A stretch of DNA of 60,746 nt from Gammaproteobacteria bacterium (GTDB lineage Bacteria > Pseudomonadota > Gammaproteobacteria > Pseudomonadales > Azotimanducaceae): contig JAPOTD010000044.1 of NCBI GenBank assembly GCA_026709365.1, forward strand, positions 1-60,746, written 5' to 3'. Both the position numbers and the translations under genes were made by a program. Numbering within the stretch: position 1 is the stretch's first letter; each line of letters starts with the position of its first letter. The notes under the pieces were generated by a model. It had not been told where the DNA came from, searched no databases, and saw nothing but the letters and a program-made list of their open reading frames with translations. Positions 13,490 through 58,103 of this stretch are shown here, in pieces.

Positions 13490-13586
13490 GGACCGTGCGG
13501 GTTCGGAAAGCATCGGAACCTGACCCACGCAACGGCAGCCCCGAGTTTCGCGCCAGCGAAACTCGACCATGCCGCCGCAGGCGGCA
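13490..13586 (+). repeat. Two-hairpin dispersed element, copy 1
   Basis: Hairpin A is CGAGTTTCGC/GCGAAACTCG with a 4-base loop (13542-13565); hairpin B is TGCCGCC/GGCGGCA (13570-13586). Upstream, 13490-13540 matches the conserved flank of the other copies in reverse orientation (GGTTCGGAAAGCATCGGAAC). It lies between two genes on the plus strand and ends 66 bases before the amidohydrolase start. Confidence 0.75.
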
Positions 13587-13652
13587 CGAGTGGCCCAATC
13601 CATCCGGCCCCGCTATGCTCACGCCCCGGACAACCGCTTGGAGGAGAACCGC

Positions 13653-14870
13653 GTGAGCCAAGACCCCTATCTGCTGATCACCGCCGACACCCACGCCGGG
13701 GGGAGCCACGCGCAGTACCGCGAGTATCTGGATCCCGGCTACCGGGGGCGGTTCGACGAGTGGCGCGGCGGCTACCGCAATCCCTCCCAGGAGCACTACG
13801 GCAGGAAGAAGATGCGCAACTGGGACTACGAGATCCGCACCCGCGACCAGAACAGCCAAGGCGTGGTCGGCGAGGTGGTGTTCCCGAACACCGTGCCGCC
13901 CTTCTACACCAAGAGCGTGGTCACCGCCCAGCCGCCCGCGCCGGACCGCTTTGAGCTGGCCCTAGCCGGCATCCGCGCCCACAACCGCTGGCTTAAGGAC
14001 TTCTGCGCGGAGGATCCCGACCGCCGCGCCGGCATCGGCCTGATCCTGCCGAACGACCTGGACGAAGCCGTCAAGGACATCGAGTTCATTGCCAAGGCGG
14101 GGCTGCGCGGCGGCGTGCTGCTGCCGCTCATCCCGCCCGACTGCACTTGGCTGAAGCCGCTCCACGACCCAGCCTGGGACAAGGTGCTGGCCGCCATTCA
14201 GGACCACGACCTGGTCATCAACCAGCACTCCGGCCAGGGTTCGCCGGACTACGGCGCCGGCCCCGTGCCGGAGGCGCTCTGGATTTCCGAAGTCACCTTC
14301 TACTGCCAAGCGGGATGGCGCCACCTGCTGATGAGCGGCGCCTACGAGAAGTTCCCCAAGCTCAAGTACATCCTCACCGAATCCGGCTGCGCCTGGGTGG
14401 GACCGGCGCTTGCGCAGCTCGACCGCATCCACATGGGCTTCAAGGCCGGCGCCATCGGCGAGATGGACTACGCCGGCATGGAATGGGTGCTGAAGGACCG
14501 CCCCAGCGAGTACGCGGCGCGCAATTGCCACTACGGCGCGAGCTTCCCCAGCAGCGCCGATCTGGAAGGCATCGATGCGGTCGGCGAGGACCGGGTGCTC
14601 TGGGGCAACGACTACCCCCACTTCGAGGGCACCTTCCCCTACAACCTGGAGTCGCTGCGCCTGACGTTCGGCGATCTGCCGGACGCGCGCCGCCGCAAGA
14701 TCCTCGGCCTGAACGCTGCCCGGCTCTACAACTTCGACGTGGACAAGCTTGCGCCCTTGGCCCAGGAATTCGGCCCGACGCCGGAGCAGGTGGAGACGCC
14801 GCTGCCCAAGGCGCAGATCCCCGCCGATTCGATGTGCTACCTGTTCACCAACGCGCTCTACGGAGCCTAG
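13653..14870 (+). CDS. Amidohydrolase-2 family protein (first of two)
   Basis: A 405-residue TIM-barrel metal-dependent hydrolase or decarboxylase of the ACMSD/amidohydrolase-2 type. Visible motifs are ITADTHAGG at the N-terminus, VINQHSGQGSPDYG mid-barrel with the metal His, and VLWGNDYPHFEGTFP with the metal Asp near the C-terminus. The GTG at 13653 has GGAGGAG upstream. Two bases separate its stop from the start of the next, related gene. Relatives act on ring-cleavage products or carboxylated aromatics, in line with the monooxygenase upstream; the exact reaction is unknown. Confidence 0.88.
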   Translation: MSQDPYLLITADTHAGGSHAQYREYLDPGYRGRFDEWRGGYRNPSQEHYGRKKMRNWDYEIRTRDQNSQGVVGEVVFPNTVPPFYTKSVVTAQPPAPDRFELALAGIRAHNRWLKDFCAEDPDRRAGIGLILPNDLDEAVKDIEFIAKAGLRGGVLLPLIPPDCTWLKPLHDPAWDKVLAAIQDHDLVINQHSGQGSPDYGAGPVPEALWISEVTFYCQAGWRHLLMSGAYEKFPKLKYILTESGCAWVGPALAQLDRIHMGFKAGAIGEMDYAGMEWVLKDRPSEYAARNCHYGASFPSSADLEGIDAVGEDRVLWGNDYPHFEGTFPYNLESLRLTFGDLPDARRRKILGLNAARLYNFDVDKLAPLAQEFGPTPEQVETPLPKAQIPADSMCYLFTNALYGA

Positions 14871-14872
14871 CC

Positions 14873-15730
14873 GTGGCCATGCCGAGCGGCATCGGCATCA
14901 TCGACACGATGATCGGGTTCCCGGCCGAGGACTTCAAGCAGTACGATTTCATCCGCGAGCAGTTGAAGGACGGCTCCAAGGACTTCGACTTCCCCGTGGA
15001 GTACATGTTCAAGCACGTCCCCAAGTCGCTGTACGGCGCTGCCGATCCCATCGCCGTCACGCTGCACGAGATGGACCGCTTCGGCGTTGAAGTCGGCGTG
15101 ATCGGCGTCGGCAACGAAGTGAGCCGCCAAGCCCTGAACGCCCATCCGGACCGCTTCGTCGGGCAGGGGTTCGTGGACCCGAATCGCGGCATGGACGGCA
15201 TTCGCGACATGGTGCGCGAGCACGAGGCGCTCGGGGTTGGTTCCTTCTCCGCCTTCAACGCAGGGTACAACCCGCAAGTCGGCATCGCCGACCCGCTGAT
15301 GTATCCCATCTACGCCAAGTGCGTGGAGCTCGCAGCACCCATCTTCGTCTGCGCCGGCGTGCCGGGGCCGCGCTTTCCCATGTGGCCGCAGGAGGTGCGC
15401 CTGATCGACCAAGTGATGTACGACTTTCCGGAACTGGTGTTGGTCACCCGCCACGGCTGCGAGCCCTGGGAGGACCTCGCGGTCAAGCTCATGCTCAAGT
15501 GGCCGAATCTCCACTACTCCACCACCGCGTTCGCCCCGAAGCACTATCCCCAAGCCATCATCGACTACGCCAACACCCGCGGCGCGGACAAGATCATCTA
15601 CGGCGGCTACTTCCCGATGGGCCTGTCCCTGGAGCGCATCATGGCCGACATGCCGAAACTGCCGCTCAAGGAAGACGTATGGCCAAAATTCCTGCGCGAG
15701 AACGCCAGAAAGGTCCTGAACCTCCGCTAG
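14873..15730 (+). CDS. Amidohydrolase-2 family protein (second), lacking the N-terminal HxH
   Basis: A 285-residue protein with the amidohydrolase-2 fold. It starts with IIDTMIGFPAEDF, where active relatives have an Asp-x-His-x-His metal site, and reads VLVTRHGCEPWEDL in the middle. The metal His pair of strand 1 is therefore missing. The GTG at 14873 has GGAG 7 bases upstream; ATG 14879 is a close alternative. Tight coupling to the larger amidohydrolase suggests the two products act together, perhaps as a mixed complex with one catalytic and one degenerate subunit. Confidence 0.82.
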   Translation: MAMPSGIGIIDTMIGFPAEDFKQYDFIREQLKDGSKDFDFPVEYMFKHVPKSLYGAADPIAVTLHEMDRFGVEVGVIGVGNEVSRQALNAHPDRFVGQGFVDPNRGMDGIRDMVREHEALGVGSFSAFNAGYNPQVGIADPLMYPIYAKCVELAAPIFVCAGVPGPRFPMWPQEVRLIDQVMYDFPELVLVTRHGCEPWEDLAVKLMLKWPNLHYSTTAFAPKHYPQAIIDYANTRGADKIIYGGYFPMGLSLERIMADMPKLPLKEDVWPKFLRENARKVLNLR

Positions 15731-15789
15731 CGGACAAGCTTTCCCGGATCACTCAACGCAAAACGCCAACCACGACAAGGAGCGCACCC

Positions 15790-16398
15790 ATGCTGACCCT
15801 GCACTTCGCCCCCAACTCCCGCGCCGGACGCATCGTCTGGCTGCTTGAGGAGCTGGGCCTCGACTACGAACTCAACCGCATGGACTTCCATCCCAAGGAC
15901 TTGAAGTCCAGCGAGCACCGCTCCCGGCATCCCCTGGGCCGCGTGCCGGTGCTGGATGACGGCGACGTGCGCATCTACGAGTCCGGCGCCATCGTCGAGT
16001 ACGTCGTCGCCCGGCACACGGACGGCGCCCTGAAGCCACCCGTCAATTCGCCGCTGTTCCCCGCCTACCTGCAGTGGTTCCACTACTGCGAGGGCATGGT
16101 GATGCCGCCGGTCAACACCATCGTGGTGCAGACCATCCTGCTGCCCCCGGAGCGCCGCAACGAGGAGGCCTTGGGGCAGGCCCAGCGTCTGCTGACCAAG
16201 GCGCTGGCGCCGGTCGATGAGCAGCTTGAGGGCAAGGACTACCTGATCGGCGGCTTCTCCGCCGCTGACGTCATGCTCGGCCACGCCTGCTTCATGAGCC
16301 GCCGCCTGGGCTGCGTCACCGACGAGATGGCCCACTTGCAGGCCTACATCGATCGCGTCGAGCAACGGCCAGCCTTTCAGAAGGCGATGGGTTCGTAG
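15790..16398 (+). CDS. Glutathione S-transferase family protein
   Basis: Cytosolic GST of 202 residues. The thioredoxin-like N-terminal domain reads LTLHFAPNSRAGRIVWLLEE, then RVPVLDDGDVRIYESGAIVEY with the conserved Pro and Glu-Ser that bind glutathione. The helical C-terminal domain includes YLIGGFSAADVMLGH. The ATG at 15790 has AAGGAG at the right distance. Last gene of the catabolic set; bacterial GSTs in such clusters often isomerise or dehalogenate ring-cleavage products. Confidence 0.92.
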   Translation: MLTLHFAPNSRAGRIVWLLEELGLDYELNRMDFHPKDLKSSEHRSRHPLGRVPVLDDGDVRIYESGAIVEYVVARHTDGALKPPVNSPLFPAYLQWFHYCEGMVMPPVNTIVVQTILLPPERRNEEALGQAQRLLTKALAPVDEQLEGKDYLIGGFSAADVMLGHACFMSRRLGCVTDEMAHLQAYIDRVEQRPAFQKAMGS

Positions 16399-16399
16399 C

Positions 16400-16795
16400 T
16401 CAGGGACTCAGCCGGTAGGTCACCCGCGCCGCCGCCACCTCCTCACCGTCGGCACTGCGCACGCAGACGTCGCCCACGCAGACGGAACCGCCGCGGCGGC
16501 GCACCTTGGCTTCGGCAATCAGGTCCGTTTCCGCCGCCAGCTTGAGGAAGTGGACCGTGAAGTCCACCGTGGCGCCCCAAGCGCCTTGGGTTAGCGCGGG
16601 ATGGGACCAGAAGGCCGCGGTGGCGGCGATGTCGATCAGGGCGCTGATGGCACCGCCGTGAATGCGGCCCACGCCCAGCGCTTCTCGGTACGGCAGTCGA
16701 ACGGTAGCCTGATCCTCGGCGCTGTGCGTCAATTCCACGCCCAGCAGGCCCGAGAAGCCGTCGTTGACGACGGCCTGCGCATGGTCGAAGGCCAA
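16400..16795 (-). CDS. PaaI-type hotdog thioesterase
   Basis: Single hotdog-fold thioesterase of about 131 residues hydrolysing acyl- or aryl-CoA. Motifs are GVGRIHGGAISALIDIAATAA, with the conserved His-Gly-Gly and catalytic Asp, and a VDFTVHFLK strand. I chose the TTG at 16795 because GGAG lies 8 bases upstream; a TTG at 16822 is also open. It slightly overlaps or abuts ppiB, so the two are probably co-transcribed. Confidence 0.88.
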   Translation of the reverse strand: MAFDHAQAVVNDGFSGLLGVELTHSAEDQATVRLPYREALGVGRIHGGAISALIDIAATAAFWSHPALTQGAWGATVDFTVHFLKLAAETDLIAEAKVRRRGGSVCVGDVCVRSADGEEVAAARVTYRLSP

Positions 16796-16797
16796 CG

Positions 16798-17301
16798 TCA
16801 GCGCTCCAAGGCCGCGTTCCAAGCCGCAACGCGATCCTCAAAGGCGTCGAGCAGCGGGGCGACTTCGCCCAAAACCTTGATGCCGCTGATCGAGTCGCCT
16901 TGCTGGATGCCGTCCACCACCGCCTGGTCCTCGCCGTCCAGCACCTCGCCGAAGATCGTGTGGGCGTCGTCCAGCCAAGCGGTCGGCACATGGGTGATGA
17001 AGAACTGCGAGCCGTTGGTGCCGGGCCCGGCATTGGCCATCGACAACCGTCCGGGGCGGTCATGGCGCAACTCATCGCTGAACTCGTCCTCGAACTGATA
17101 GCCGGGGCCGCCCCCGCCCGACCCCTTTGGACAGCCGCCTTGGATCATGAACCGTTCAATCACGCGATGGAAATTGAGCCCGTCGTAAAAGCCCCGGCGG
17201 CTGAGGTTGACGAAATTGGCGACCGTCACCGGCGCCTGTTCGGGAAACAGCCGCAGTCGGATGGCGCCCTTGCTGGTGGTGATGGTGGCTTGAATGGACA
17301 T
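16798..17301 (-). CDS. ppiB: Peptidyl-prolyl cis-trans isomerase, cyclophilin type
   Basis: Cytoplasmic cyclophilin of 167 residues that accelerates proline isomerisation. Signature motifs are [36 protein letters not shown] and [10 protein letters not shown]. No signal peptide, so PpiB rather than PpiA. The ATG at 17301 has GGGAGGAG upstream. The frame runs open through the repeat array to 17739, but that extension is repeat sequence, not protein. The gene lies downstream of three copies of the dispersed hairpin element. Confidence 0.95.
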
Positions 17302-17393
17302 AGGCGCTCCTCCCGGCTCGTCAGGTTGTGGGTATGAGGTGGGAAAGTGGAAAGGCGCCATCCTGCCTCTTTGGCTAGGAAATTGCGAGCAGA

Positions 17394-17727
17394 CGCACCC
17401 GCTGCGCGGGTGCGTTGGAGTTTCGCTGACGCGAAACTCCGCACTGGTTGCGTAGGCCAGGTTCCGAAATGTTTCTGAGCCTGCACAGCAGGCGCGACCT
17501 GACGGTCGCTGCGCGCCCGCTGCGCGGGTGCGTTGGAGTTTCGCTGACGCGAAACTCCGCACTGGTTGCGTAGGCCAGGTTCCGAAATGTTTCTGAGCCT
17601 GCACAGCAGGCGCGACCTGACGGTCGCTGCGCGCCCGCTGCGCGGGTGCGTTGGAGTTTCGCTGACGCGAAACTCCGCACTGGTTGCGTGGGCTAGTTTC
17701 CGATATGTTTCTGAGCCTGCACAGCAA
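17394..17727. repeat. 118-bp tandem repeat array of the two-hairpin element (2.8 units)
   Basis: Units begin at 17398, 17516 and 17634 with a period of 118 bases. The first two are identical and the third is truncated and diverged. Each holds a GC hairpin (CGCACCCGC/GCGGGTGCG, loop TGC, in the first unit), the invariant hairpin GGAGTTTCGC/GCGAAACTCC with loop TGAC, a conserved flank ending ATGTTTCTGAGCCTGCACA, and, in units 1 and 2, a further hairpin GCGACC/GGTCGC with loop TGAC. Read on the minus strand the order is flank, hairpin A, hairpin B, then ppiB. Confidence 0.92.
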
Positions 17728-17781
17728 CGCCTGAAACATTCACAATAGTGGCCAACTCGGCCCAAAGTGGAGCGCCTCGTC

Positions 17782-18963
17782 ATGAACTCTCTGCACAAAG
17801 CGATCACCGATCGCATCGATTCGCTGGCCGACACGCTGCTTGAGGTCTCCCACGCCATTCATGCCCGACCGGAACTCGCCTTTGAGGAGTTCCACGCCTG
17901 CGAATTGCTATCCCGCACGCTCAAGGACCACGATCTGCCGACGCAAACCGGAGTGTTCACGTTGGACACGGCCTTTGAAGCCGGGCTCAATGCGGAAAGC
18001 CTTGGGCCGACCGTGGCGCTGCTCGCCGAATACGATGCGCTGCCGGGCATCGGCCATGCCTGCGGCCACAACTTAATCGCCACGGCGGCGCTCGGCGCGA
18101 CCCTCGGGCTGCAAGCCGTGCAGGAGCAGTTGCCGGGACGGGTCCGCCTGATTGGAACCCCTGCTGAGGAAAAGGGCGGCGGCAAGGAACTGATGGCCCG
18201 CGCCGGCGCATTCGAGGCCGTCGATGCCGCAATGATGATCCATCCGGCGGGATTGAATCTGGCGACCATGCCCTGCATCTGCGTCGCCGAGGTCGAGGTG
18301 ATCTACCACGGCCGCTCCGCCCACGCCTCGGTTTCGCCGCACCGCGGCATCAACGCCTTGGACGGACTGCTGCTGGCCTACCAATCGATTTCCAACCTGC
18401 GCCAACACATTCGCGACGGGGAACGCATACACGGCATCATCACTGAGGGCGGACAGGCGCCCAACATCGTGCCGGAGCGCGCCGTCGGAGACTTCTATGT
18501 GCGGGCGGCCGACGAAACGGCGCTCGCCAACTTGAAGCCTCGGGTTCAGGCTTGCTTTGAAGCCGGCGCCAAGGGCAGCGGCTGCAAGGTCGAAATCAAC
18601 TGGGCCAAGGTGGATTACTTGGATCTCAACACCAATTGGCCGCTGGCGGATGTATTCCAAAAACACGGGGAATGCCTCGGACGGGAGTTCCTGGATTGGG
18701 AGGAGTTGGGCGGTGCGGGCAGCACCGACATGGGCAACGTAAGCCACCGCGTGCCCGCCATTCATCCGCTGCTGGCGGCGGCACCCCGCGACGTGGTCAT
18801 CCACAACCCGGAGTTCGCCAAGTGGGCCGGGTCGGCAATGGGCGATGCCGCGGCGCTGGACGGCGCCAAACTGCTGGCGATGACCGCTGCCGATTTCCTG
18901 ACGGACGGCGAACTGCGCAGGGCCAGTGCCGAGGCATTCCACATCGCCAAGGGTCTTGCCTAG
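17782..18963 (+). CDS. M20 family amidohydrolase/peptidase
   Basis: Zinc-dependent amidase of 393 residues, AbgB/aminoacylase-like, cleaving N-acyl or aminobenzoyl-type amide bonds. Motifs: EYDALPGIGHACGHNL at about residues 82-97 (metal His and Asp), GTPAEEKGGGKEL with the catalytic Glu pair, HGRSAHASVSPHRGINALD of the dimerisation domain, and a C-terminal GSTDMGNVSHRVP. The ATG at 17782 has GGAG about 9 bases upstream. First of seven genes on the plus strand. Cytoplasmic: no signal peptide. Confidence 0.9.
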   Translation: MNSLHKAITDRIDSLADTLLEVSHAIHARPELAFEEFHACELLSRTLKDHDLPTQTGVFTLDTAFEAGLNAESLGPTVALLAEYDALPGIGHACGHNLIATAALGATLGLQAVQEQLPGRVRLIGTPAEEKGGGKELMARAGAFEAVDAAMMIHPAGLNLATMPCICVAEVEVIYHGRSAHASVSPHRGINALDGLLLAYQSISNLRQHIRDGERIHGIITEGGQAPNIVPERAVGDFYVRAADETALANLKPRVQACFEAGAKGSGCKVEINWAKVDYLDLNTNWPLADVFQKHGECLGREFLDWEELGGAGSTDMGNVSHRVPAIHPLLAAAPRDVVIHNPEFAKWAGSAMGDAAALDGAKLLAMTAADFLTDGELRRASAEAFHIAKGLA

Positions 18964-19241
18964 GAGCCTGCGCCGCAGGAATTCACGGCTGCACGTCAGT
19001 TCCCCATCGCTGCTTTGTGCGTTCGGCTTCACCGAACGGGGCTGAATCTCCTCTCAAATCGTCGGTCCAAGGGGGCCGATAGGAACCGTCGGCAAAGGCC
19101 GTGACGCCAAGCGCACCGCTGAAAGCCACCAAAAAATGCACCTGTCAAACATCGGGGTGCTTTCGGCAAAAGACAGCGGGGCACGGCTGGCGCATTCTGG
19201 AATCGCCAATCCGCTGGAACAGTCATCAGGAGGGGGGAACC
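18964..19241. other. Intergenic region before the TonB receptor
   Basis: These 278 bases contain no convincing gene. A hairpin GTTCGG/CCGAAC (19021-19037) without a following T run lies in the first third. The receptor's promoter is probably in the second half. No Fur box was recognised. Confidence 0.5.
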
Positions 19242-21419
19242 ATGAAAACTGCCATCGGACCCTTTGGATCGATCCCGTTTGCCGTTGCCGCCCTGCTGCA
19301 CCCAACCCCACCCGCATTCGCGCAAGGAAGCCAACAAGTCGAGACCGACCGGGCGCGCGTCATCGAGGTCATCACGGTGACGGCCCGAAAAAAGGCGGAG
19401 AGCATCCAGGACACGCCGTTGGCCGTCAGCGCTCTGTCCGGAGAGCAGTTGCAGGACAGCGGCATCGATTCGTTTGATCGGGTGCTCGACATCGTGCCGA
19501 ACGCCGGTCAAGCGGGCGGCATAGCCGGCTCCATCCAAGGGCTGATCAGCATTCGGGGCATTTCGACCCTTGTGCGCTTCGTCGGCCTCGAAACCGGCGT
19601 CGGGTACTACATCGACGGCGTGTACGCGGGGCGCCCGGAAAACTTCAACCAAGACCTGATCGACATCGAGCGAATTGAGGTTCTGCGCGGCCCGCAAGGC
19701 ACCTTGTTCGGTAAAAACACCATCGCTGGCGCCGTCAACATCATCACTCGAAACCCAAGCGAGGAACTGCAGGGCGTCCTGGAGGCCCAATACGGAAACT
19801 ACGATCATCGACGGCTGCGAACCCACATATCCGGCCCCTTGTCAGACAAGCTGTCGGCGTCGCTTTCCGCCGGCTACACGGAGCGCGACGGATTCGTGAA
19901 GCACCTGTCCGGCGGGCAGGACCTTGAAAACGCCGACCTTGGGTCATTCCGCGGCAAATTGCGCTTTCAACCCACCGCTGGAACCGATTTCACTCTGGCG
20001 GCGGATGGCCTGATCGACCGGGGAGAGCCGGTGCTGTTCGAGGTATCGGATTTTGCTTTTTTTTCCGACCCTTCCACAGCCACCCACCACACGACCAACA
20101 ACGACCAGCCCAACTTCGTGCATCGGGACGTCTGGGGCGTTTCGTTGACCGGCGACATTGACACGGGGGCAGGCACGCTCACTTCCATCCTGTCCTACCG
20201 CAAGTCCTCCTTTGACGCCAGCCTGGACGATGACAAACACGCGGTGCGCGTGTTCGTAGATGTGTTCGGCCAAGACTCCGACGTGTTCTCCGCTGAGGCA
20301 CGGCACGCCGGCCGGTTCTCCGCCCGATCCGACTACATCGCGGGCCTCTACTACTACCACCAGGAGTCCCGCGGCTACGGAGACTTCGCGCTGGGGGACT
20401 TTCTGACCGGGGTGCCGGGTTTCGAGGTGCCCATCACGCTAAACAGCTCGGTTGACTCGGAAAGCGTCGCGCTGTTCTTCAACACGAATCATGCGCTGAC
20501 CGATCGTTTGCAACTGGAGGTCGGGGGACGGTGGGTTTCGGAGTCGAAGACCGGCGCCCACCTGCAAAACGACCAAACAGGCCTCTTCGGCGATACCGAC
20601 TACTCGCGTTCGCGAACCGATCGGGACTTTGCGCCTTCCGTTTCGCTGGCATACGACTTCAACAGCGCGGCCACCGGTTACCTGCGCTTCGCCCAAGGCT
20701 TCAAGAGCGCGGGCTTCAACGTTGACTTCGTCGGTCCCAACGCCCAGTTGGAAGTCGCCCCTGAGTTCGCAACCTCCTATGAGGCAGGGATCAAATCAAG
20801 CCTCCTTGACCAGCGGATCAGGTTGGATCTGGCGGCATTCCATACGAAGTACAAGGACTTGCAGCTCACTCAGATTGTAGGTGGCGGCGTGAGCCTGGCC
20901 AACGCCGCAGTGGCGAAGATCTGGGGTTTGGAAGCGGAGGCAACGGCATTGGTCGGTCAGTACGTCGATCTCCGGGCCAGCCTGGGCTACTTGGATGCGA
21001 CCTACGACGACTTTCCCGGATGCCAGGCGCCTGGGGCCAGCGCACCCGATCTCATCGTCGAAAACTGCGCTGGAAGACACTTGAACCTAGCGCCGGAGTG
21101 GACGGCAGCGCTCGCCATTCAATTCAGGTATCCCATCGACCGCGTCGGCGAACTCGTGCTGCAAGGCGATTGGAATCACCGCAGCCGCGTTTACTTTGAG
21201 CCGCAAAACGATCCGAGGCTCAGCGGCAAAGCAAGGGATCTAGTTAGCTTGCGGGCAGGGCTGGACATGGACGGTTGGGCGATTTACGTCTGGGCGCAAA
21301 ACCTGACCGATGAAGTCTATGTCAACTTTGCGGACGACCGCAGCGTGATCGGCGCCAACACAACCCAAGCGTTCGGGCATCCCAGAACCTACGGCGCGAC
21401 CCTGCGGCTGACGCTGTGA
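19242..21419 (+). CDS. TonB-dependent outer membrane receptor
   Basis: Outer membrane gated beta-barrel of 725 residues importing a scarce compound with energy from TonB. A signal peptide (about residues 1-27, ending PAFAQG) is followed by a TonB-box-like segment EVITVTARKKAESIQD, the plug domain (PLAVSALSGEQLQDSGI, then RIEVLRGPQGTLFGKN near residue 145), and a barrel ending in TYGATLRLTL with an outer-membrane insertion signature. The ATG at 19242 has AGGAGGGGGG upstream; the open frame extends 47 codons further, but that part is not receptor-like. The next genes are a hydrolase and an AraC regulator, a common receptor-processing-sensor set. Confidence 0.95.
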   Translation: MKTAIGPFGSIPFAVAALLHPTPPAFAQGSQQVETDRARVIEVITVTARKKAESIQDTPLAVSALSGEQLQDSGIDSFDRVLDIVPNAGQAGGIAGSIQGLISIRGISTLVRFVGLETGVGYYIDGVYAGRPENFNQDLIDIERIEVLRGPQGTLFGKNTIAGAVNIITRNPSEELQGVLEAQYGNYDHRRLRTHISGPLSDKLSASLSAGYTERDGFVKHLSGGQDLENADLGSFRGKLRFQPTAGTDFTLAADGLIDRGEPVLFEVSDFAFFSDPSTATHHTTNNDQPNFVHRDVWGVSLTGDIDTGAGTLTSILSYRKSSFDASLDDDKHAVRVFVDVFGQDSDVFSAEARHAGRFSARSDYIAGLYYYHQESRGYGDFALGDFLTGVPGFEVPITLNSSVDSESVALFFNTNHALTDRLQLEVGGRWVSESKTGAHLQNDQTGLFGDTDYSRSRTDRDFAPSVSLAYDFNSAATGYLRFAQGFKSAGFNVDFVGPNAQLEVAPEFATSYEAGIKSSLLDQRIRLDLAAFHTKYKDLQLTQIVGGGVSLANAAVAKIWGLEAEATALVGQYVDLRASLGYLDATYDDFPGCQAPGASAPDLIVENCAGRHLNLAPEWTAALAIQFRYPIDRVGELVLQGDWNHRSRVYFEPQNDPRLSGKARDLVSLRAGLDMDGWAIYVWAQNLTDEVYVNFADDRSVIGANTTQAFGHPRTYGATLRLTL

Positions 21420-21513
21420 GGCTGGGGTTGTCCGCATCGGTTTGGCGATGCGGGTTCCCCAGAACCATGCGCCCTAGCCTAACTGGCATCCCGGCAAACG
21501 GCGCGCCTTCCGG

Positions 21514-22359
21514 ATGGAACCGATTTTGACCGCCACCGCCTACATTCACACGCGCCTGGGCAGGACGGCCTACATGGCATCCGGGAGCATCGGCCCCCCG
21601 CTGCTCTTCGTCCACGGCAACTCCTGCTGCAAGGAGGCCTTTGCAAAGCAATTCGACAACTCGGCCCTGCGGCGTCACCGGCTGCTCGCCGTTGACCTGC
21701 CGGGCCACGGGAACTCGGACGACGTGAGCGATTGCCCAGCCGACGCAACCCTGGCGAATTTCGCGCGTTGGCTGCAGGAGCTCATTCAAGATCTCGGCCT
21801 CGGCAGGCCAGTGGTGGTTGGCTGGTCGCTGGGCGGACACATTGCCATTGAGGGGCTCGGACAGGGCATGGCGCTTGCCGGCTTGGTGCTTTGCGGCACA
21901 CCGCCAGCGGGGCCCGGCGCCGGAGAGATGGAAGAGGCCTTCATGCCCAGTCCAGAGATGGCAATGACCGGCAAGGCGGCATTCACCGAAGCCGAGGCCA
22001 TCCGGTACTGCGATAGCCTGTACGGAGGCGCGGACCTGCAAAACACGGGGCTGGCCAAAGCCGTGCGGCGAGCTCAGGGCGCCGTCCGGGAAAGCTTGCT
22101 GGAAAATTACCAACAACCCGGCGCCTGCCACTCTCAACGCGCCGTCGTGGCCGACAATGCCTGCCCAATCGCCGTAATCCAAGGCGGCGCGGACGCCTTC
22201 GTAAACAGAGCCTATTTTGAAACTCTCCAGTGGCGCAATCTATGGCGCGACCGGGTGCAGTTCATCGAAACAGCGGGCCATGCGCCTTTTTTCGAGCGGC
22301 CGGACGCCTTCAATGCAACGCTTCTGGAGTTTCTTGGAGACCTCGGCTACCGTGCTTGA
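21514..22359 (+). CDS. Alpha/beta hydrolase
   Basis: A 281-residue alpha/beta hydrolase. The oxyanion strand reads LLFVHGNSCCKE, the nucleophile elbow is GWSLGGH with Ser near residue 107, the acid is probably in IQGGADAFV, and the catalytic His is in TAGHAPFFERPDAF. No signal peptide, so it acts in the cytoplasm. It lies between the receptor and the AraC regulator and most likely hydrolyses an ester or lactone in the imported molecule. The ATG at 21514 lacks an obvious Shine-Dalgarno sequence. Confidence 0.88.
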   Translation: MEPILTATAYIHTRLGRTAYMASGSIGPPLLFVHGNSCCKEAFAKQFDNSALRRHRLLAVDLPGHGNSDDVSDCPADATLANFARWLQELIQDLGLGRPVVVGWSLGGHIAIEGLGQGMALAGLVLCGTPPAGPGAGEMEEAFMPSPEMAMTGKAAFTEAEAIRYCDSLYGGADLQNTGLAKAVRRAQGAVRESLLENYQQPGACHSQRAVVADNACPIAVIQGGADAFVNRAYFETLQWRNLWRDRVQFIETAGHAPFFERPDAFNATLLEFLGDLGYRA

Positions 22360-22361
22360 CC

Positions 22362-23405: not shown

Positions 23406-23420
23406 TCGCCCGAATGCGTG

Positions 23421-23468
23421 TGGAGCTTCGCGCAGCGAAACTCCATCCGCGCCCGCTCCGCGGGTGCG
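23421..23468 (+). repeat. Two-hairpin dispersed element, copy at 23.4 kb
   Basis: Hairpin A is TGGAGCTTCGC/GCGAAACTCCA with a single C-A mismatch and GCA loop (23421-23445). Hairpin B is CGCGCCCGC/GCGGGTGCG with loop TCC and one G-U pair (23448-23468). The conserved flank is not evident. It ends 74 bases before the Rieske gene, in the same orientation as that gene. Confidence 0.75.
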
Positions 23469-23542
23469 CAGGCTTCCTGCTGATCGACGCAATCTGCAAT
23501 AATCGCAGTTGGCATTGTCGGCGACGAGGAGAGGAGGACACC

Positions 23543-32429: not shown

Positions 32430-32744
32430 TTCTCCTCCCTTTGACCCGTTTCCGCCGATGCCGTCCGCACGTTCCTTCGGCGCATCCGGCGCAAGGATGC
32501 CATCGGGATGCTCCACCCCGAGCCTGCCGGGTTTCGCCCCAGCGAAACTCAAATCGGGCTTTGGCGCTCAAGGGCCAAAGCCCGCGTTGTAAAAGCTGCC
32601 GCAAATGAGAGAATACGCCGCTTGACGCGCTTCGGCCCTCGACTCGATTTCATCATACCAATCCGGAAGTCGAAGGTTCGACATTTTGGCTTGGCGTCTG
32701 GGGGCAAGGCCGCGCACCTTCACGAGCATTGACGGGAGAGAACC
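32430..32744. other. Divergent promoter region of the acyl-CoA synthetase and aco operon
   Basis: These 315 bases hold one two-hairpin element and no gene. The remainder, 32585-32744, is comparatively AT-rich around 32595-32690 and probably carries the aco promoter. No enhancer-type -24/-12 promoter (GG-N10-GC), common for acetoin operons, was recognised with confidence. Confidence 0.5.
32531..32584 (+). repeat. Two-hairpin dispersed element, copy at 32.5 kb
   Basis: Hairpin A is GTTTCGC/GCGAAAC with loop CCCA (32531-32548). Hairpin B is CGGGCTTTGGC/GCCAAAGCCCG, an 11-bp stem with an 8-base loop (32555-32584). This B stem shares no sequence with the B stems of the other copies but stands in the same place after A. 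Confidence 0.75.
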
Positions 32745-47360: not shown

Positions 47361-47383
47361 TAGCAGGCGAGGAGGCTTGAACC

Positions 47384-48451: not shown

Positions 48452-49029
48452 CGATAGTAGGCATTCTCCGTGACGCTGTGGTCGGTGACGTCGCGAATTG
48501 CGGAGAGGTCCGGAATCTGCGCCAAAAGGGTGCTCTCGACGCTCTGCTTGAGGGTGATATCCACTGCGGCGCAGCCTTGGCAGCCGCCGCCAAACTGCAG
48601 CACGGCGGTGTTGTCCTCCAGCAGCTCCACCAGGCTGACCATGCCGCCGTGGGCCGCCAGCCCCGGATTGATCTCGTTGTAGAGCACGTAGTTGATGCGG
48701 TCCTCCAAGGGCGAGTTCTCATCGACGCTGGGCACCCGGGCGTTGGGCGCCTTGATGGTGAGCTGGCCCCCCATGCGGTCTTCCTGAAAATCCACCACCG
48801 CATCCGCCAAGTAGCTTTCGCTGCGCGCCTCGATCCAAGCCCGAAAGCCGTCGTACTGGTAGGGCATGTCGTCGTCCTGGGCCTCGCCGGGGCGGCAGTA
48901 GGCGATGCAGGTCTCCGCATGGGGGGTGCCCGGCTGGGCGACGAACACCCGGATGCCCACGTCGTCATCGGCCTGCTTGGCCAGCAGTTCCTGCAAGTAC
49001 GCCTGCGCCTTTTCGGAGATGTCGATCAT
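48448..49029 (-). CDS. nfuA: Fe-S biogenesis protein NfuA
   Basis: Carrier delivering [4Fe-4S] clusters to target enzymes; 193 residues. The N-terminal degenerate A-type domain (about 1-95) lacks most cluster Cys; the C-terminal Nfu domain has [11 protein letters not shown] with the Cys-x-x-Cys that binds a cluster between two subunits (about 147-150), and [20 protein letters not shown] at the end. It converges on the DAHP synthase gene with four bases of overlap and diverges from metH. One two-hairpin element lies in its upstream region in the sense direction. Confidence 0.95.
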
Positions 49030-49365
49030 GTCAATTCCCTACCTGTGCAGCCAAGTATGGTAAACGCTGAGGCCCGCCGGGCCAAGGCGCGCCCGCGAAG
49101 CGGGCGCGTTGGAGTTTCGCTGGCGCGAAACTCCGCGCACTCGTCGCGCAGGTCGGATTCCGAGATGTTTCTTAAGCCCGCACAGGCGAGGCGAATCTCT
49201 GCCGGCAGGGAGAAGCCCGCAGCGCACACCCACTCCCACAACGTGAATCCCATTCAGGTTGGCAATTTGAAATCCGGCTCGCTCGATGACGGCATCCGCC
49301 TATACTTGCTTCGCAACTCGGCTTGCTGGCCGCAAGGCAAACTCACGACTCCGCCACCCTCAACC
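49030..49365. other. Divergent region between nfuA and metH
   Basis: A 336-base gap containing one two-hairpin element (49088-49186) and no gene. The rest, 49187-49365, should hold the metH promoter. I looked for a cobalamin or S-adenosylhomocysteine riboswitch ahead of metH and did not recognise one. Confidence 0.5.
49088..49186 (-). repeat. Two-hairpin dispersed element, copy at 49.1 kb
   Basis: Hairpin B is CGCGCCCGC/GCGGGCGCG with loop GAA (49088-49108), hairpin A is GGAGTTTCGC/GCGAAACTCC with loop TGGC (49111-49134), and the flank continues to a match of ATGTTTCTGAGCCTGCACA near 49165-49185. On the minus strand the order is flank, A, B, followed by nfuA 58 bases later. Confidence 0.85.
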
Positions 49366-53022
<3,657 letters not shown>

Positions 53023-53066
53023 TCGCCTTCGGCCTTCCAAAAAACCGGATCCGGATTCCAACAGGC

Positions 53067-53119
53067 GTTTCGCGCCGGCGAAACTCCCATGCGAACCTTT
53101 CCGTGCAAACCCTTGCACG
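53067..53119 (+). repeat. Two-hairpin dispersed element, copy at 53.1 kb
   Basis: Hairpin A is GTTTCGC/GCGAAAC with loop GCCG (53067-53084). Hairpin B is CGTGCAA/TTGCACG with loop ACCC (53102-53119), here 17 bases after A. It lies between metH and cysI, in the same direction as both, 109 bases before cysI. Confidence 0.7.
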
Positions 53120-53228
53120 CAAACCCGGGGATCGCACCGCCCCAGCGCTGTTTCGGTTCTATGCATAGGCGCAATCGCGCTTTCAGCCCGGCGGCCAGTG
53201 GTGATAGCGTTGCCGGTCGCTTGTCACC

Positions 53229-54896
53229 ATGCAGAAACCGATGTACCGCTACGACACCTTCGATCAGCAGTTCGTTGACGAACGGGTGGCCCACTTTCGC
53301 AGCCAAACCAAGCGCTACCTGGCGGGCGAACTCAGCGACGATGAGTTCCTGCAGCTGCGCCTGCGCAACGGCCTCTACATTCAGCGCTTGGCGCCCATGC
53401 TGCGGGTGGCGGTGCCCTACGGCACCCTGTCCAGCCGCCAGCTGCGCATGCTCGCCCACATCGCCCGGCACTACGATCGCGGCTACGGCCACCTCAGCAC
53501 CCGCCAGAACATGCAGTTCAACTGGCCGGAATTGGCTGAAGTGCCGGACATTCTGGCCGACCTCGCCACCGTGCAGATGCACGCCATACAGACCAGCGGC
53601 AACTGCATCCGCAACGTCACCACCGATGAGTTTGCCGGGGTAGCGGCGGATGAGGCGGTCGATCCCCGCCCCTATTGCGAGCTGATCCGCCAATGGTCCA
53701 CCTCGCACCCCGAATTCGACTGGCTGCCGCGCAAGTTCAAGATCGCCATGAGCGGCGCCGACGACGATCGGGCGGCGGTCAACGTCCACGACATCGGCTT
53801 GCTGGCGCGGCGGCGCGGCGGCGAAACCGTTTTCGACGTCCTGGCCGGCGGCGGCCTCGGCCGCACCCCGGTCATCGGCTCGCTGATCCGGGAGGCGCTG
53901 CCGGTCCGCCATCTGCTCACCTACCTCGAAGCGATCATGCGGGTGTACAACCGCTACGGCCGCCGCGACAACAAGTACAAGGCGCGCATCAAGATATTGG
54001 TTCGGGCCATGACCGCCGAGGGCTTCAAAGCCCGGGTCGATGAGGAGTGGTCGCACCTCAAGGGCTCCCCCAGCACCCTGACCGAAGATCAGGTGGCGGG
54101 CATGGAAGCCCACTTCGCACCGCCCGCCTATGTCGAACGGCCCGGCGCCGCTGCCGCCTTGGCAGCGGATCGGCTCAAGGATGCGGACTTCGCCCGCTGG
54201 GTGCGGCAGAACGTCTCGCCGCACAAGCAAGCCGGCTACGCGATCGCCACCCTCTCCACGAAGGAGACGGGCAGCCCGCCAGGCGACGTCTCCGACCGCC
54301 AAATGGAAGCGGTGGCCGATTGGGCGGACGCCTACGGCTGCGGCGAGATCCGCATCTCCCACCAGCAGAACTTCGTCCTGCCGGACATCGGCCAAGACCA
54401 GCTTTACACACTCTGGCAGGCGGCGCGAGCCGAGCGGCTCGCCGCGCCCAACCGGGGGCTCGCCACCGACATCATCTGCTGCCCCGGCGGCGACTACTGC
54501 TCCCTGGCCAACGCCAAGTCCATTCCGGTGGCGGAGGCCATTCAAGCCGAGCTGGAGGACTACGACTACCTGCATGACCTGGGCGAGCTCGACATCAACA
54601 TCTCCGGCTGCATGAATGCCTGCGGCCATCACCACGTCGGCCACATCGGCATTCTCGGCGTGGACAAGAAGGGCCGCGAGCACTACCAAATCGCCATCGG
54701 CGGCCATGCGGGCAACGACGCCTCGGTGGGCCAGATCATCGGGCCATCGTTCTTTCGCGACGACGTTCCCCGAGTGGTCCGCCGCATCCTCGACGTTTAC
54801 CTCGCCGAGCGGGTGGAAAACGAAAGCTTCCTGCACTGCGTTCGACGCATCGGCGTTGAGCCCTTCAAGGTAGAGGTCTATGCCAAAGCTGCTTAG
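53229..54896 (+). CDS. cysI: Assimilatory sulfite reductase hemoprotein (nitrite/sulfite reductase family)
   Basis: Siroheme and [4Fe-4S] enzyme reducing sulfite to sulfide; 555 residues, matching the single-subunit CysI seen in pseudomonads. Two ferredoxin-like half domains are present (LRNGLYIQRLAPMLRVAVPYG; HLSTRQNMQFNWPEL). The cluster/siroheme Cys motifs are CCPGGDYCSLANAKS (about 416) and NISGCMNACGHHHVGHIG (about 457-475). The 3' end overlaps the DUF934 gene by 17 bases. CysB, encoded at 37.2 kb, would be expected to activate it. Confidence 0.92.
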   Translation: MQKPMYRYDTFDQQFVDERVAHFRSQTKRYLAGELSDDEFLQLRLRNGLYIQRLAPMLRVAVPYGTLSSRQLRMLAHIARHYDRGYGHLSTRQNMQFNWPELAEVPDILADLATVQMHAIQTSGNCIRNVTTDEFAGVAADEAVDPRPYCELIRQWSTSHPEFDWLPRKFKIAMSGADDDRAAVNVHDIGLLARRRGGETVFDVLAGGGLGRTPVIGSLIREALPVRHLLTYLEAIMRVYNRYGRRDNKYKARIKILVRAMTAEGFKARVDEEWSHLKGSPSTLTEDQVAGMEAHFAPPAYVERPGAAAALAADRLKDADFARWVRQNVSPHKQAGYAIATLSTKETGSPPGDVSDRQMEAVADWADAYGCGEIRISHQQNFVLPDIGQDQLYTLWQAARAERLAAPNRGLATDIICCPGGDYCSLANAKSIPVAEAIQAELEDYDYLHDLGELDINISGCMNACGHHHVGHIGILGVDKKGREHYQIAIGGHAGNDASVGQIIGPSFFRDDVPRVVRRILDVYLAERVENESFLHCVRRIGVEPFKVEVYAKAA

Positions 54897-55338
54897 ATTG
54901 AATGACGACGCCAACGGCACCGGGAACGGAGCTGCCGCCGGCGCGGCGGCGCAACTTGAGCCGGCGGGCCAATGGACGCCGGAATCCGGCAAGGGCCTCA
55001 AGCTCAGCGTGGATCAGGAGATCGAGGAGCGGTTTCTGGCCGCGCCGCTGATCGGCATCGAGTTTCCAACCTTCAGTGACGGCCGGGGGCTCTCCCTAGC
55101 GTTCCTGCTGCGCAGCCGCCACGGCTACCAAGGCGACTTGGTCGCCACCGGCGCGGTGCAGGCCGACATCCTGCACTACATGCGCCGCTGCGGCTTCACG
55201 GCCGCGTTGCTGCCGGGCGGCGAGGCCCCCGACGCACAAACCCTTGCACCCCATTCGGATTACTATCAGGCTTGCGCCACCGAGCCTGAGCCTGGCCGCT
55301 TCCGAATAGGGGGAGGACCATCGAACATTCCGACATAG
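54880..55338 (+). CDS. DUF934 protein, sulfite reductase partner
   Basis: A 152-residue protein with the DUF934 core: SDGRGLSLAFLLRSRHGYQG and YMRRCGFTAALLPGG. DUF934 genes commonly follow cysI, and the protein is thought to act with that reductase, possibly in electron delivery; the mechanism is not settled. It overlaps cysI upstream, and its 3' end carries the ribosome binding site of the antiporter gene. The first 30 residues are a low-complexity Gly/Ala stretch. Confidence 0.85.
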   Translation: MPKLLRLNDDANGTGNGAAAGAAAQLEPAGQWTPESGKGLKLSVDQEIEERFLAAPLIGIEFPTFSDGRGLSLAFLLRSRHGYQGDLVATGAVQADILHYMRRCGFTAALLPGGEAPDAQTLAPHSDYYQACATEPEPGRFRIGGGPSNIPT

Positions 55339-56492
55339 CCGCGTCATTTTTCCTGATCTTCGCCGGGGCAGCGGTGCTGGCCACCGTCGCTCTCTACAGC
55401 CGGCAACCCCTGCTGGTCGCCTACATCGCCATCGGCTGCCTGCTCGGCCCGCACGGAATGTCGGTGGTGAGCGATGCCCAACTGCTTGCCGAGATCGCCG
55501 AGTTCGGCATCATATTCCTGCTCTTCCTGATCGGCTTGGACATGCAGCCGTCCACGCTCAGGACCATGCTGGGCAAGTCGCTGGCGACCGCGCTGGGCAC
55601 CTCGGCGGCGTTCTTCGCAATCGGCTTTGGGCTGACGCTGGCCTTTGGCTTCAGCATGGCCGAGGCGTTGGTCGCCGGCGTGGCGGTGACCTTTTCGAGC
55701 ACCATTCTGGGGGTCAAGCTGCTGCCCACCACGGCGCTGCACCACCGGCACATCGGCGAGGTGGTGGTCGGCCTGCTGCTGATACAGGATGTGCTGGCGA
55801 TCGTTGCCTTAGTGCTGGTGGCGGGCTACGGCGGAAGCCTGGAGGCGACCCTGACAAGCCTCGGCACCATCGTTGTCGCCCTGCCAGCGTTGGCCGGGGC
55901 CGCCTTCCTGGCGGTGCGCATGGTGCTGCTGCCGCTGATCGCCCGTTTCGACGCCTTCCACGAGTTCATCTTCCTGCTGGCGATCGGCTGGTGCTTCAGC
56001 ATCGCCTTCGCCGCCAGCACCGCCGGACTCTCGATGGAAATCGGCGCCTTCATCGCCGGAGTCACCTTGGCGATTCATCCCATCTCCCAATACATCGCCG
56101 AGAGCCTGCGCCCGATTCGAGACTTCTTCCTAGTGCTGTTCTTCTTCTCCGTGGGGGCGGCGCTGGACATCGGCGCGGCGCTGCAAATGGCCGTTCCCAT
56201 CGTCCTGCTGGCGGGCCTGCTGATTGCGTTGAAGCCCCCCACATTCGCCTATCTGCTGCGCTGGCAGGGAGAGTCCAAGGCCGATGCGTGGGAAACGGGC
56301 TTTCGGCTGGGGCAGGCGTCGGAATTCTCCCTGCTGCTGAGCTACGTCGCCGTCGGCGCCGGCCTGATCGGCGCCAATGCGGCCTACCTCATCCAGGGCA
56401 CGACCATCCTCACCCTGATCGCCTCAAGCTACCTGGTCGTCTTCCGCTTCCCCACTCCCATCGCCATGAGCGCCGAGCTGCGGCGCGACTAG
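55320..56492 (+). CDS. KefB-like cation:proton antiporter without RCK domain, apparent ATC start
   Basis: Inner membrane CPA2-family antiporter of about 390 residues with 11-13 hydrophobic segments; motifs include LLGPHGM, EFGIIFLLFLIGLDM, HHRHIGEVVVGLLLIQDVLA and SMEIGAFIAGVTLA. It ends after the membrane domain, without the regulatory TrkA-N domain of KefB/KefC. No ATG, GTG or TTG lies between the upstream in-frame stop (55287) and GTG 55374, which would cut off the first helix. ATC at 55320, behind GGGGGAGG (55309-55316), gives EHSDIAASFFLIFAGAAVL and matches family N-termini in length. GTG 55374 is the conservative alternative. Confidence 0.85.
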   Translation: MEHSDIAASFFLIFAGAAVLATVALYSRQPLLVAYIAIGCLLGPHGMSVVSDAQLLAEIAEFGIIFLLFLIGLDMQPSTLRTMLGKSLATALGTSAAFFAIGFGLTLAFGFSMAEALVAGVAVTFSSTILGVKLLPTTALHHRHIGEVVVGLLLIQDVLAIVALVLVAGYGGSLEATLTSLGTIVVALPALAGAAFLAVRMVLLPLIARFDAFHEFIFLLAIGWCFSIAFAASTAGLSMEIGAFIAGVTLAIHPISQYIAESLRPIRDFFLVLFFFSVGAALDIGAALQMAVPIVLLAGLLIALKPPTFAYLLRWQGESKADAWETGFRLGQASEFSLLLSYVAVGAGLIGANAAYLIQGTTILTLIASSYLVVFRFPTPIAMSAELRRD

Positions 56493-56522
56493 GGATTAGC
56501 CTTGACCCAATGCGCCTGGACG

Positions 56523-57722
56523 TCATCGCCAGCCCCCCTTGCCGGGAAGCCACTGGACGAGTTGCTTCAGGCCACCTTCGATCTCGCCAAGCACCCGCTC
56601 CAAGGGCTTCTTGTGCTCAACCCAGCGCACCTCAAAGACATCCGCCTCCCCGCAGCACCGCATCAGGTACTCATCGCTGGTGGCGATTTCATCGACTAGG
56701 TTCAACTCGATGGCCCGTCGTCCGTACCATGCCTCGCCGGTGGCCACCTTCTCCAACTCAACGCCGGGGCGCTGCTCGTTGACGAACTCCTGAAAGAGCA
56801 CGTGCAAGTCCTCCAACTCCTCGGTGAACTTACGGCGCCCCTCGTCGGTGTTCTCGCCGAGCATGGTCAGGGTGCGCTTGTAGCGTCCGGCGGTGATCAC
56901 CTCCACGTCCACATCATTCTTCTTCAGCAGGCGATGGACATTGGGAATCTCCGCCACCACGCCGATGGAGCCCACCACCGCGAAGGGCGCCGCGATGACC
57001 TTGTTCGCCACCGCCGCCATCAGGTAGCCGCCACTGGCCGCCACCTGGTCCACGGCCACCACCAGATTCAGGCCATGCTGGCGCACGCGCTGCAGCTGCG
57101 ATGCCGCCAGTCCGTAGCCATGCACCCGGCCACCGAAGCTCTTGACCCGCACCACCACCTCATCGCCGGCGCTGGCCTTGGTGAGCACGGCGTTGATCTC
57201 GTGGCGGAGGTGGGAAACCTTGGTGGCGTCCATGTCGCCCTCAAAGGTCAGCGCGTAAACGCGGCTCTTGCCCGCCACGCCCGCTTCACCGCCGCCAGCA
57301 TCGCTTTTGGCTGCCGTTTGGGGCGCGTCCAAGCTTTGCGGCACCGGTGCCTGGAGCCGCGATTCCGGGTCGGATTGTTCCTGGGCGGGCGCTGACTCCG
57401 GTTCCGGCGCGGCTTGATGGCCGCCACCATAGCCCTTGGCCGGCCGGTGCGCCTGCTTGGCCTCCTTCCGGACCTGGCGCCGCGCCTTTCTGGACTCCTG
57501 GCGCACCGCCTTGCGATACTGCTTGCGGCTGAGCATGGCCTGCTCAAGGCCGTGCCGAAGATCGTCAAGGTAGTCGTTGAGCCGAATCACCTCCAGAGCG
57601 CCCCTAGGCGCATGACGGCGGCGGGCGCTGAACGTCGCCATGGCGCTGAGCACCACCAGAACGGCGGCAACAACGGTGGCCGCCTGAGCCAGGAAAACCA
57701 AGTAGTCGTATAGATAGGTCAT
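56523..57722 (-). CDS. sohB: SohB-type S49 membrane protease
   Basis: Inner membrane serine protease of the signal peptide peptidase (S49) family; 399 residues. One N-terminal membrane helix (about 9-31), then a highly charged Lys/Arg segment (about 65-95) and a Pro/Ala/Gln-rich linker (to about 150), then the protease domain: FEGDMDATKVSHLRHEI, VDQVAASGGYLMA with nucleophile Ser near 227, and AGRYKRTLTMLGENTDEGR with the general-base Lys near 281. It degrades membrane-released peptides. It converges on the KefB-like gene and diverges from nhaB. Confidence 0.93.
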   Translation of the reverse strand: MTYLYDYLVFLAQAATVVAAVLVVLSAMATFSARRRHAPRGALEVIRLNDYLDDLRHGLEQAMLSRKQYRKAVRQESRKARRQVRKEAKQAHRPAKGYGGGHQAAPEPESAPAQEQSDPESRLQAPVPQSLDAPQTAAKSDAGGGEAGVAGKSRVYALTFEGDMDATKVSHLRHEINAVLTKASAGDEVVVRVKSFGGRVHGYGLAASQLQRVRQHGLNLVVAVDQVAASGGYLMAAVANKVIAAPFAVVGSIGVVAEIPNVHRLLKKNDVDVEVITAGRYKRTLTMLGENTDEGRRKFTEELEDLHVLFQEFVNEQRPGVELEKVATGEAWYGRRAIELNLVDEIATSDEYLMRCCGEADVFEVRWVEHKKPLERVLGEIEGGLKQLVQWLPGKGGWR

Positions 57723-58103
57723 GTGCGCTCAGCCGTGGAAAAGCGCCCTACTTTACTGGCAGAGCGCTCTCCAGGCCACCGAAAGGCGCGCGGGCTGTTG
57801 GCGCCGGGCTCAGAAGCTAATCGGAAACTGACTCATGCGACGGCAGCGGAGTTTCGCGCCAGCGAAACCACAACGCGAACCAAAGGTTCGCGCGGGTGTG
57901 CGGGCCCAGAAACATATCGGAAACTAGCCTGAGTTGTGAGCGCGGAGTTTCGCGCAGCGAAACTCCATCCGCGACCGTCAGGTCGCGCGGGTTGCCGACA
58001 ACCGACAACTCCACCAAACTACGCACGCCAAACGCCACGCCCCCCGGCTCGGACACACAGGCCGCAAGCCGCCTAGGGGACAAGGAAAATCAAGGGGAAA
58101 GCC
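57723..58103. other. Divergent region between sohB and nhaB
   Basis: These 381 bases carry two units of the two-hairpin element (57807-57987) and otherwise no gene. The last part, 57988-58103, ends in the purine-rich sequence AAGGGGA that precedes the nhaB start. Confidence 0.55.
57807..57987 (+). repeat. Two-hairpin dispersed element, two units in tandem
   Basis: Unit 1: flank from 57807, hairpin A GTTTCGC/GCGAAAC loop GCCA (57851-57868), hairpin B CGCGAACC/GGTTCGCG loop AAA (57874-57892). Unit 2: flank with CCCAGAAACATATCGGAAAC, hairpin A GGAGTTTCGC/GCGAAACTCC loop GCA (57944-57966), hairpin B CGCGACC/GGTCGCG loop GTCA (57970-57987). The two B stems differ at matching positions on both arms. 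Orientation is toward nhaB. Confidence 0.88.

Follow-up and report, generated by a model that had tools for sequence, protein, structure and literature searches.

What kind of element places the same pair of hairpins at seven separate intergenic loci of one bacterial contig? The stretch of DNA concerned, called the window below, is 60,746 nt long (contig JAPOTD010000044.1, assembly GCA_026709365.1, Azotimanducaceae). A preliminary description made from its letters counted ten copies of an invariant hairpin A, followed by a second hairpin, B, of changing sequence, and offered a mobile repeat of the REP/BIME type (repetitive extragenic palindrome/bacterial interspersed mosaic element), a 5′-leader RNA or a binding platform as explanations. 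The ten copies at seven loci were recovered: GTTTCGC-N(3-6)-GCGAAAC is found exactly at 9 places in the window, with loops of 3–4 nt, compared with 0 in 100 shuffles, and the tenth copy, at 23.4 kb, carries one arm mismatch (GAGCTTCGC). Hairpin B could be read after A at 7/7 loci; at 53.1 kb it begins 17 nt from the A core. On the evidence that follows, we consider it an even call that A and B form part of a genus-restricted, REP-like composite repeat that is mobilised in trans and is targeted to, or kept at, the upstream edges of promoters.

Hairpin A is abundant beyond the window, in one clade of its genus. In the genome to which the window belongs (the own genome, G000; 3.70 Mb, 144 contigs, 95.7% complete) it is found exactly at 260 places, compared with 2 for a reversed control pattern. 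Eight congeners contain 86, 46, 42, 29, 1, 0, 0 and 0 copies and 49 further genomes 0–3 each, the own genome and congener G007 being the two richest. Matches in Treponema and other unrelated genomes, which among the matches listed at first looked like A plus B, were taken as chance; the two spirochaete genomes searched, of three, have one copy each, and our own estimate for that pattern in that public genome collection is about 8 chance matches. Plasmid and phage collections, queried with one copy each, gave no match, and a literature search conducted largely outside subscription journals (sources include PMC2817692) yielded no description of the repeat. A related hairpin, GAGTTGC/GCAACTC, is present 17 times in the own genome (e.g. 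G000 C4:8243 and C65:15526), 9–31 times in four congeners and 0–1 times in the other 33 genomes searched.

The architecture of the repeat was defined in a sample of 1,507,944 nt of the own genome, comprising 101 stretches including the window, some of them picked for holding copies, in which there are 133 exact copies of A. Because A is palindromic, the direction of the element was set by a lead module, U, in 110 copies and by the side of hairpin B in 23. Conservation begins ~51 nt before GTTTCGC, at the start of U, and U, A and B together span ~95 bp; the consensus of 96 copies reads TGTGCGGGCTCAGAAACATnTCGGAAyCTGACCCACGCaACGAGCGCGGAGTTTCGC-loop-GCGAAACTCC. The shared flank that had been pointed out in the window, ATGTTTCTGAGCCTGCACA (3 exact places and 1 with 2 mismatches), proved to be the reverse complement of part of U. 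GCGGA precedes the A core in the consensus, and usually three bases there pair with the other side (exactly three in 72/133 copies). The loop of A is 4 nt long in 71/133 copies, 3 nt in 59/133 and 5 nt in 3/133. No inverted repeat was apparent by eye between the left end of the element (TGTGCGGG) and its right end (GCGC).

A search with U gave 145 hits (E up to 1). An exact A lies no more than 60 nt away in 104 of them, and several of the other 41 carry changes in a single arm of A. The supposed invariance of A is partly a matter of ascertainment because copies were found by A. Modules occur as U-A-B, U-B, U-U-B, U alone and tandem U-A-B; several of the variant forms lie beside promoter-like sequence, and some lie upstream of tRNA genes. 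Among the congener copies fetched, a U score of at least 15 was reached by 1/20 in G007, 0/12 in G008, 0/5 in G006 and 5/18 in G002. Most congener copies are A-B without U, own copies mostly carry it, and therefore the joining to U and the expansion of the repeat look mainly lineage-specific.

Hairpin B follows A in most copies of the sample. With a score of at least 6.5 and a start no more than 10 nt past the A core, it was detected in 95/132 copies, compared with 5/528 shuffled sequences and with 10/131 when windows further upstream were scored in the same way; it usually starts 4–9 nt after the A core. Its stems fall into subfamilies (CGCGCCCGC, CGCACCCGC, CGCCTCTCGCCC, CGCGACC-gtca, CGCGAAC-gtca, CGCGAACC and CGAACCTTGGCC) together with single examples. 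The idea that B is a free-standing repeat was rejected, most places of each subfamily having A within 60 nt (CGC[AG]CCCGC, 42/46; CGCCTCTCGCC, 17/20; CGCGACC, 18/20).

The earlier proposal that the two arms of B change together, so that the fold is kept, gained support from both pair counts and orthologous sites. In 27 distinct stems, all with nine pairs and a 3-nt loop (26 from a set of 37 plus one from locus L087; other subfamilies are excluded), 97.5% of cells pair, compared with 23–61% in slid versions. Four of the nine pairs have changed on both sides, with 19 such cells against a shuffled mean of 4.3; 0/500 shuffles reach 19, a figure that is not a clean probability because the copies are related. 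Permutation of arms is biased, B having been picked as the best hairpin, and the evidence for B rests on the shuffled-sequence and pair-count tests.

Of 55 copies in four congeners, 18 were matched in the own sample; both flanks match in 27 own/congener pairs, some of which are drawn on here. At L163 3513 the G002 flanks are 88–90% identical on both sides and hairpin A of G002 has one stem base changed, while B reads CGCGACC-atca-GGTCGCG in G002 and CGCCTCTCGCCC-tcc-GGGCGAGAGGCG in the own genome. Nine loci retain at least part of the element in both species. At 6/9 of these B is different yet hairpin-forming (L163 3513, L025 15239, L158 6185, L161 1633, L143 5506, where the B stems are imperfect and shifted, and the L146 site, where the own A is missing an arm); at 2/9 it is identical (L025 ~16473 and the first hairpin of L159), and at L043 the own copy has decayed. 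Differing but paired B hairpins at shared loci, together with the pair changes, indicate that B has been replaced as a whole as well as pair by pair. These sequence comparisons support the view that the fold of B, and not its sequence, is kept, with the caveat that B falls into a small number of subfamilies. Joint change of both arms in a repeat can therefore arise when an entire hairpin is replaced, and not solely through compensatory point mutations, and hairpin exchange at orthologous sites separates a fold that is kept from a sequence that is inherited.

Beyond B lies, in most scored copies, the −35 region of a predicted promoter. Promoters were predicted at a threshold of at least 6 bits with a sigma-70-like matrix of the E. 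coli type. A promoter-like match in the 60 nt after B was obtained for 49/79 single copies in which B is clear, and in 46/49 the −35 begins 2–12 nt past the B stem, compared with 20/85 matches at 0–12 nt in 395 shuffled sequences; the spacing has no obvious helical phase. A −35 within 12 nt was found in 23/26 cases at the right (B) end and in 4/19 at the left end, reading outward (p = 7e-6). Divergent loci, which had been called uninformative as to direction, are informative by this measure, with a −35 no more than 12 nt away on the B side in 13/14 promoter-like cases versus 3/12 on the left. The 2–12 nt rule holds for 42/45 promoter-like matches of own copies with a GCGGA-type lead-in and for 4/4 of other own copies; in congeners it holds for 4/4 in G008, 1/2 in G006 and 6/8 in the G002 stretches. 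It also holds for 15/18 loci of a public scan among the matches listed, where GCGGA was required before A and some of the genomes are unrelated. In Azophilus records, U-bearing copies do have a promoter-like match. A second palindrome of this clade, GAGGGC/GCCCTC, with 64 copies in the own sample, behaves differently: only 14 are promoter-like, at distances spread over 3–58 nt with the better side taken. Since this palindrome shows no −35 clustering, proximity to the promoter edge is not something that all palindromes in this genome share.

Gene context was assessed with gene calls from a home-made gene finder. The 125 copies outside gene calls comprise 54 between divergent genes, 48 oriented with and 8 against co-directional genes, 7 between convergent genes and 8 with a neighbour missing. 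The 48:8 ratio (p = 4.7e-8) confirms that the A-to-B direction follows co-directional genes, as had been noticed in the window, where the 17.4- and 49.1-kb copies lie on the minus strand. Convergent sites account for 7/117 copies compared with 66/523 intergenic gaps (p = 0.052). That copies never lie inside genes was too strong a statement: they are mostly intergenic, and 8/133 overlap gene calls. One of them, L160 13415 (G000 C49, ~53.4 kb), is a variant-type A-B copy that adds ~60 nt within a 608-codon open frame, and the G002 counterpart of this frame is without it.

Orthologous promoters in congeners were used to compare sites with and without the element. There were 21 own-congener pairs, 5 of which were dropped as too weakly aligned. 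Fourteen alignments pair an own locus (10 loci in all; two of the 14, L271 and L274, overlap on one contig) with a congener site that has no A; in 8 of them homology starts no more than 6 nt from the B end, three of the 8 representing the same own locus. At the 13.5- and 57.9-kb loci of the window homology to the congener begins at the −35; in the 13.5-kb case G002 is alignable from the base preceding the −35 onward and its upstream sequence is unrelated. At least 235 nt of upstream homology to G002 is kept by 9/14 promoters for which no exact A lies within 300 nt in either species, compared with 5/19 where the own species alone has A. In the smaller groups, upstream homology extends for 0, 20, 61, 190 and 226 nt where only G002 has A (n = 5) and for 136 and 300 nt where both do (n = 2). 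At L161 2666, G008 matches both flanks without the hairpins and shares TTGACT after B. At 57.9 kb G002 has two other hairpins (GAGTTGC/GCAACTC, then TGCGTCGCC/GGCGACGCA) that stop 7 nt short of the same −35; its 53.1-kb counterpart has a GAGGGC-type palindrome. It follows from these comparisons that the −35 exists without the element at several loci.

The window itself illustrates the range of forms. At 13.5 kb, on the plus strand, U (13494–13544; similarity score 25.9, left edge of conservation ~−51 from GTTTCGC) is followed by hairpin A (13543–13564; GAGTTTCGC GCCA GCGAAACTC, by pattern and fold), hairpin B (13570–13586; TGCCGCC gca GGCGGCA) and a promoter-like GTGGCC-18-TATGCT (13590–13619, plus strand) with a score of 5.8, just below the 6-bit limit. 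The 17.4-kb locus is a tandem array on the minus strand, consisting of copy 1 (17394–17488; U 17438–17488, A core 17420–17437, B 17394–17414), which has no −35 near its B end, copy 2 (17512–17606; A core 17538–17555, B 17512–17532) and copy 3 (17630–17724; A core 17656–17673, B 17630–17650). In the plus-strand copy at 23.4 kb (23423–23468), A is GAGCTTCGC gca GCGAAACTC, B is CGCGCCCGC tcc GCGGGTGCG with one G-T pair, and U was not recognised by eye. The 32.5-kb copy (32531–32584, plus strand; A core 32531–32548, B 32555–32584, CGGGCTTTGGC/GCCAAAGCCCG) has no clear U and is followed by a −35-like TTGTAA at 32587–32592. On the minus strand at 49.1 kb (49088–49184), U, the A core (49114–49131) and B (49088–49108) precede a promoter-like sequence with −35 TTGGCC at 49080–49085 and −10 TACCAT at 49057–49062. 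The 53.1-kb copy (53067–53119, plus strand; A core 53067–53084, B 53102–53119, CGTGCAA/TTGCACG) is atypical, with no clear U and no −35 found at its B end. The 57.9-kb locus is a tandem pair on the plus strand, in which copy 1 (57800–57892) contains U, an A core at 57851–57868 and B at 57874–57892 (CGCGAACC aaa GGTTCGCG), and copy 2 (57896–57987) contains U, an A core at 57947–57963 and B at 57970–57987 (CGCGACC gtca GGTCGCG). The promoter-like TTGCCG-17-CAAACT that follows it (57992–58020, plus strand) is kept in G002, with other sequence upstream there. Separately, at 49243–49279, upstream of a frame starting near 49367, GTGAATCCCATTCAGGTTGGCAATTTGAAATCCGGC is conserved in four congeners, and in diverged form in two more, though the sequence further upstream differs; it may be an operator or a leader. 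A tRNA gene at 8279–8366 is the sole Rfam match in the window.

How might a repeat come to occupy such positions? If it is a REP-like composite mobilised in trans, copies would spread as single-stranded hairpins handled by an enzyme acting in trans, and would come to rest, or persist, where the RNA polymerase footprint ends on its upstream side. We propose that this edge is favoured because a copy placed any further in would destroy the promoter, whereas the edge itself may be permissive or exposed. B would be renewed by exchange or by hairpin-templated copying between repeats, which would keep its arms matched, and as a side effect the promoter would be separated from upstream DNA. Mobility, targeting and any effect on transcription are what we infer from the arrangement of copies. 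A bolder version, in which the repeat represents a promoter-recognising mobile class, delivered in fixed orientation just before the −35 and bearing a terminal hairpin that acts as an exchangeable cassette, swapped in place with fold and position kept, is speculative and rather unlikely.

Several observations weigh against the REP-like reading. Neither a target-site duplication nor a clean insertion end was established at the compared loci, and in the other 6/14 congener alignments homology sets in 21, 41, 41 or 50 nt inside the edge or 21 nt outside, or continues across it. Matching flanks enclose unlike sequence in the two species at 57.9 kb, 53.1 kb and L030 8175, a pattern that suggests replacement and not clean insertion. 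Thirty of the 79 single copies have no match of at least 6 bits. The promoter rule does not show in G007, where 8 single copies whose B is clear yielded 0 promoter-like matches, and it hardly shows in copies led by CAGG/AAGG, with one match among 9 copies from five genomes. Searches of the own genome with Y1 and Y2 profiles did not find a mobilising enzyme. The Y2 profile (Y2_Tnp, PF04986), for the transposase of IS91/Helitron-type elements, gave no match in G000, G001, G002, G005, G007, G008 or 14 control genomes, and one match each in G003, G004 and G006 (115 bits in G006).

The main rival, which we think possible though not probable, is that the repeat is a selected cis-regulatory or insulator DNA element, in which B beside the −35 would act as a cruciform, roadblock or supercoil sink and shield the promoter from upstream transcription or silencing. 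The tight −35 spacing, the common orientation and the keeping of the fold through replacement of B at the same site are all as this account would have it, as is the different two-hairpin arrangement that G002 places 7 nt before the same −35 at 57.9 kb. However, an insulator is not generally needed, because many orthologous promoters in congeners do without the element and three congeners have no copy at all. The spacing also lacks an obvious helical phase, and by eye some U-alone copies, without A or B, adjoin promoter-like sequence as well.

An ordinary REP/BIME moved by a RAYT (REP-associated tyrosine transposase, Y1) is improbable. The part of the earlier suggestion that stands is the general resemblance, since the hairpins are short palindromes in high copy number, dispersed, tandem and in mosaic clusters, mostly intergenic and patchy in congeners. 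The link to a RAYT and the location do not fit. A search for a Y1 gene elsewhere in the genome had been advised; the Y1_Tnp profile gave 0 matches in the own genome and in G007, the two genomes richest in A, and none in G001, G004 or G005, whereas G003 has two matches and no A. Single matches in G002, G006 and G008 lie amid another palindrome, GAGGGCG/CGCCCTC, with no exact A in the 2–3 kb fetched. These three loci (L287, L288 and L286, respectively) are likely RAYT/REP pairs in their own right; the own sample has its 64 GAGGGC/GCCCTC palindromes, yet no Y1 match was found in the own genome.

We regard an RNA element, be it a 5′ leader, riboswitch, terminator or mRNA 3′-end stabiliser, as very unlikely. 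Both hairpins do form when four window copies are folded as single-stranded DNA (z-scores −2.9 to −5.4), which counts in its favour. A 5′ leader of the downstream gene, as first suggested, is nevertheless not supported because the element stops short of the predicted −35 in most scored copies; moreover, no run of T was seen after B, divergent genes flank 54 of the 117 copies that are outside gene calls and have a called gene on either side, and at gathering scores the window and five loci match only tRNAs in Rfam. Least likely of all is an operator bound by a dimeric transcription factor. The near-perfect palindromy of A and its place beside promoters would suit such a site, but the half-sites are 3 nt apart in many copies and 4 nt apart in many others, which disfavours a fixed dimer site, and next to A comes a second hairpin, B, whose sequence varies. 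Of the binding platform first envisaged, DNA binding in general is still compatible with the data.

Known repeats provide partial parallels. The element is not filed as a REP/BIME, a miniature inverted-repeat transposable element or a known RNA family, since the features that define these groups either did not hold or were not demonstrated. Like REP, BIME and REPIN sequences it consists of short GC-rich palindromes, present in hundreds of mostly intergenic copies with tandem or mosaic arrays and a lineage-specific expansion. In contrast to them, no unpaired GTAG or CGTC tag is found at the palindrome end and no linked RAYT was found, and the element has a ~51-nt lead and a second, changing hairpin. 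Location differs as well: REPs are placed near the 3′ ends of open reading frames in PMC3733652, whereas the present repeat sits at the −35 edge. The BOX element of Streptococcus pneumoniae is likewise a modular composite with optional and repeated modules; according to PMC3049150, its terminal inverted repeats are similar to insertion-sequence ends and it is enriched where genes converge, in contrast to the 7/117 convergent sites here, and its modules differ. Correia repeat enclosed elements of Neisseria are of similar size (~100–155 bp), often lie upstream of genes and can affect promoters; PMC2649163 describes inverted repeats, target duplication and an ability to build promoters. Here, by contrast, the element does not include the −35, which several congener loci possess even though they have no element. 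In the papers compared, most palindromic repeats lie close to the 3′ ends of genes or in gaps where genes converge. A high-copy repeat that instead meets existing promoters with nearly constant spacing and orientation would lend itself to testing whether transposition can target promoters, or whether hairpins can serve as promoter boundaries. Among known systems, the element most resembles a REP-type repeat that works in a different place and in which one hairpin can be exchanged with its shape kept.

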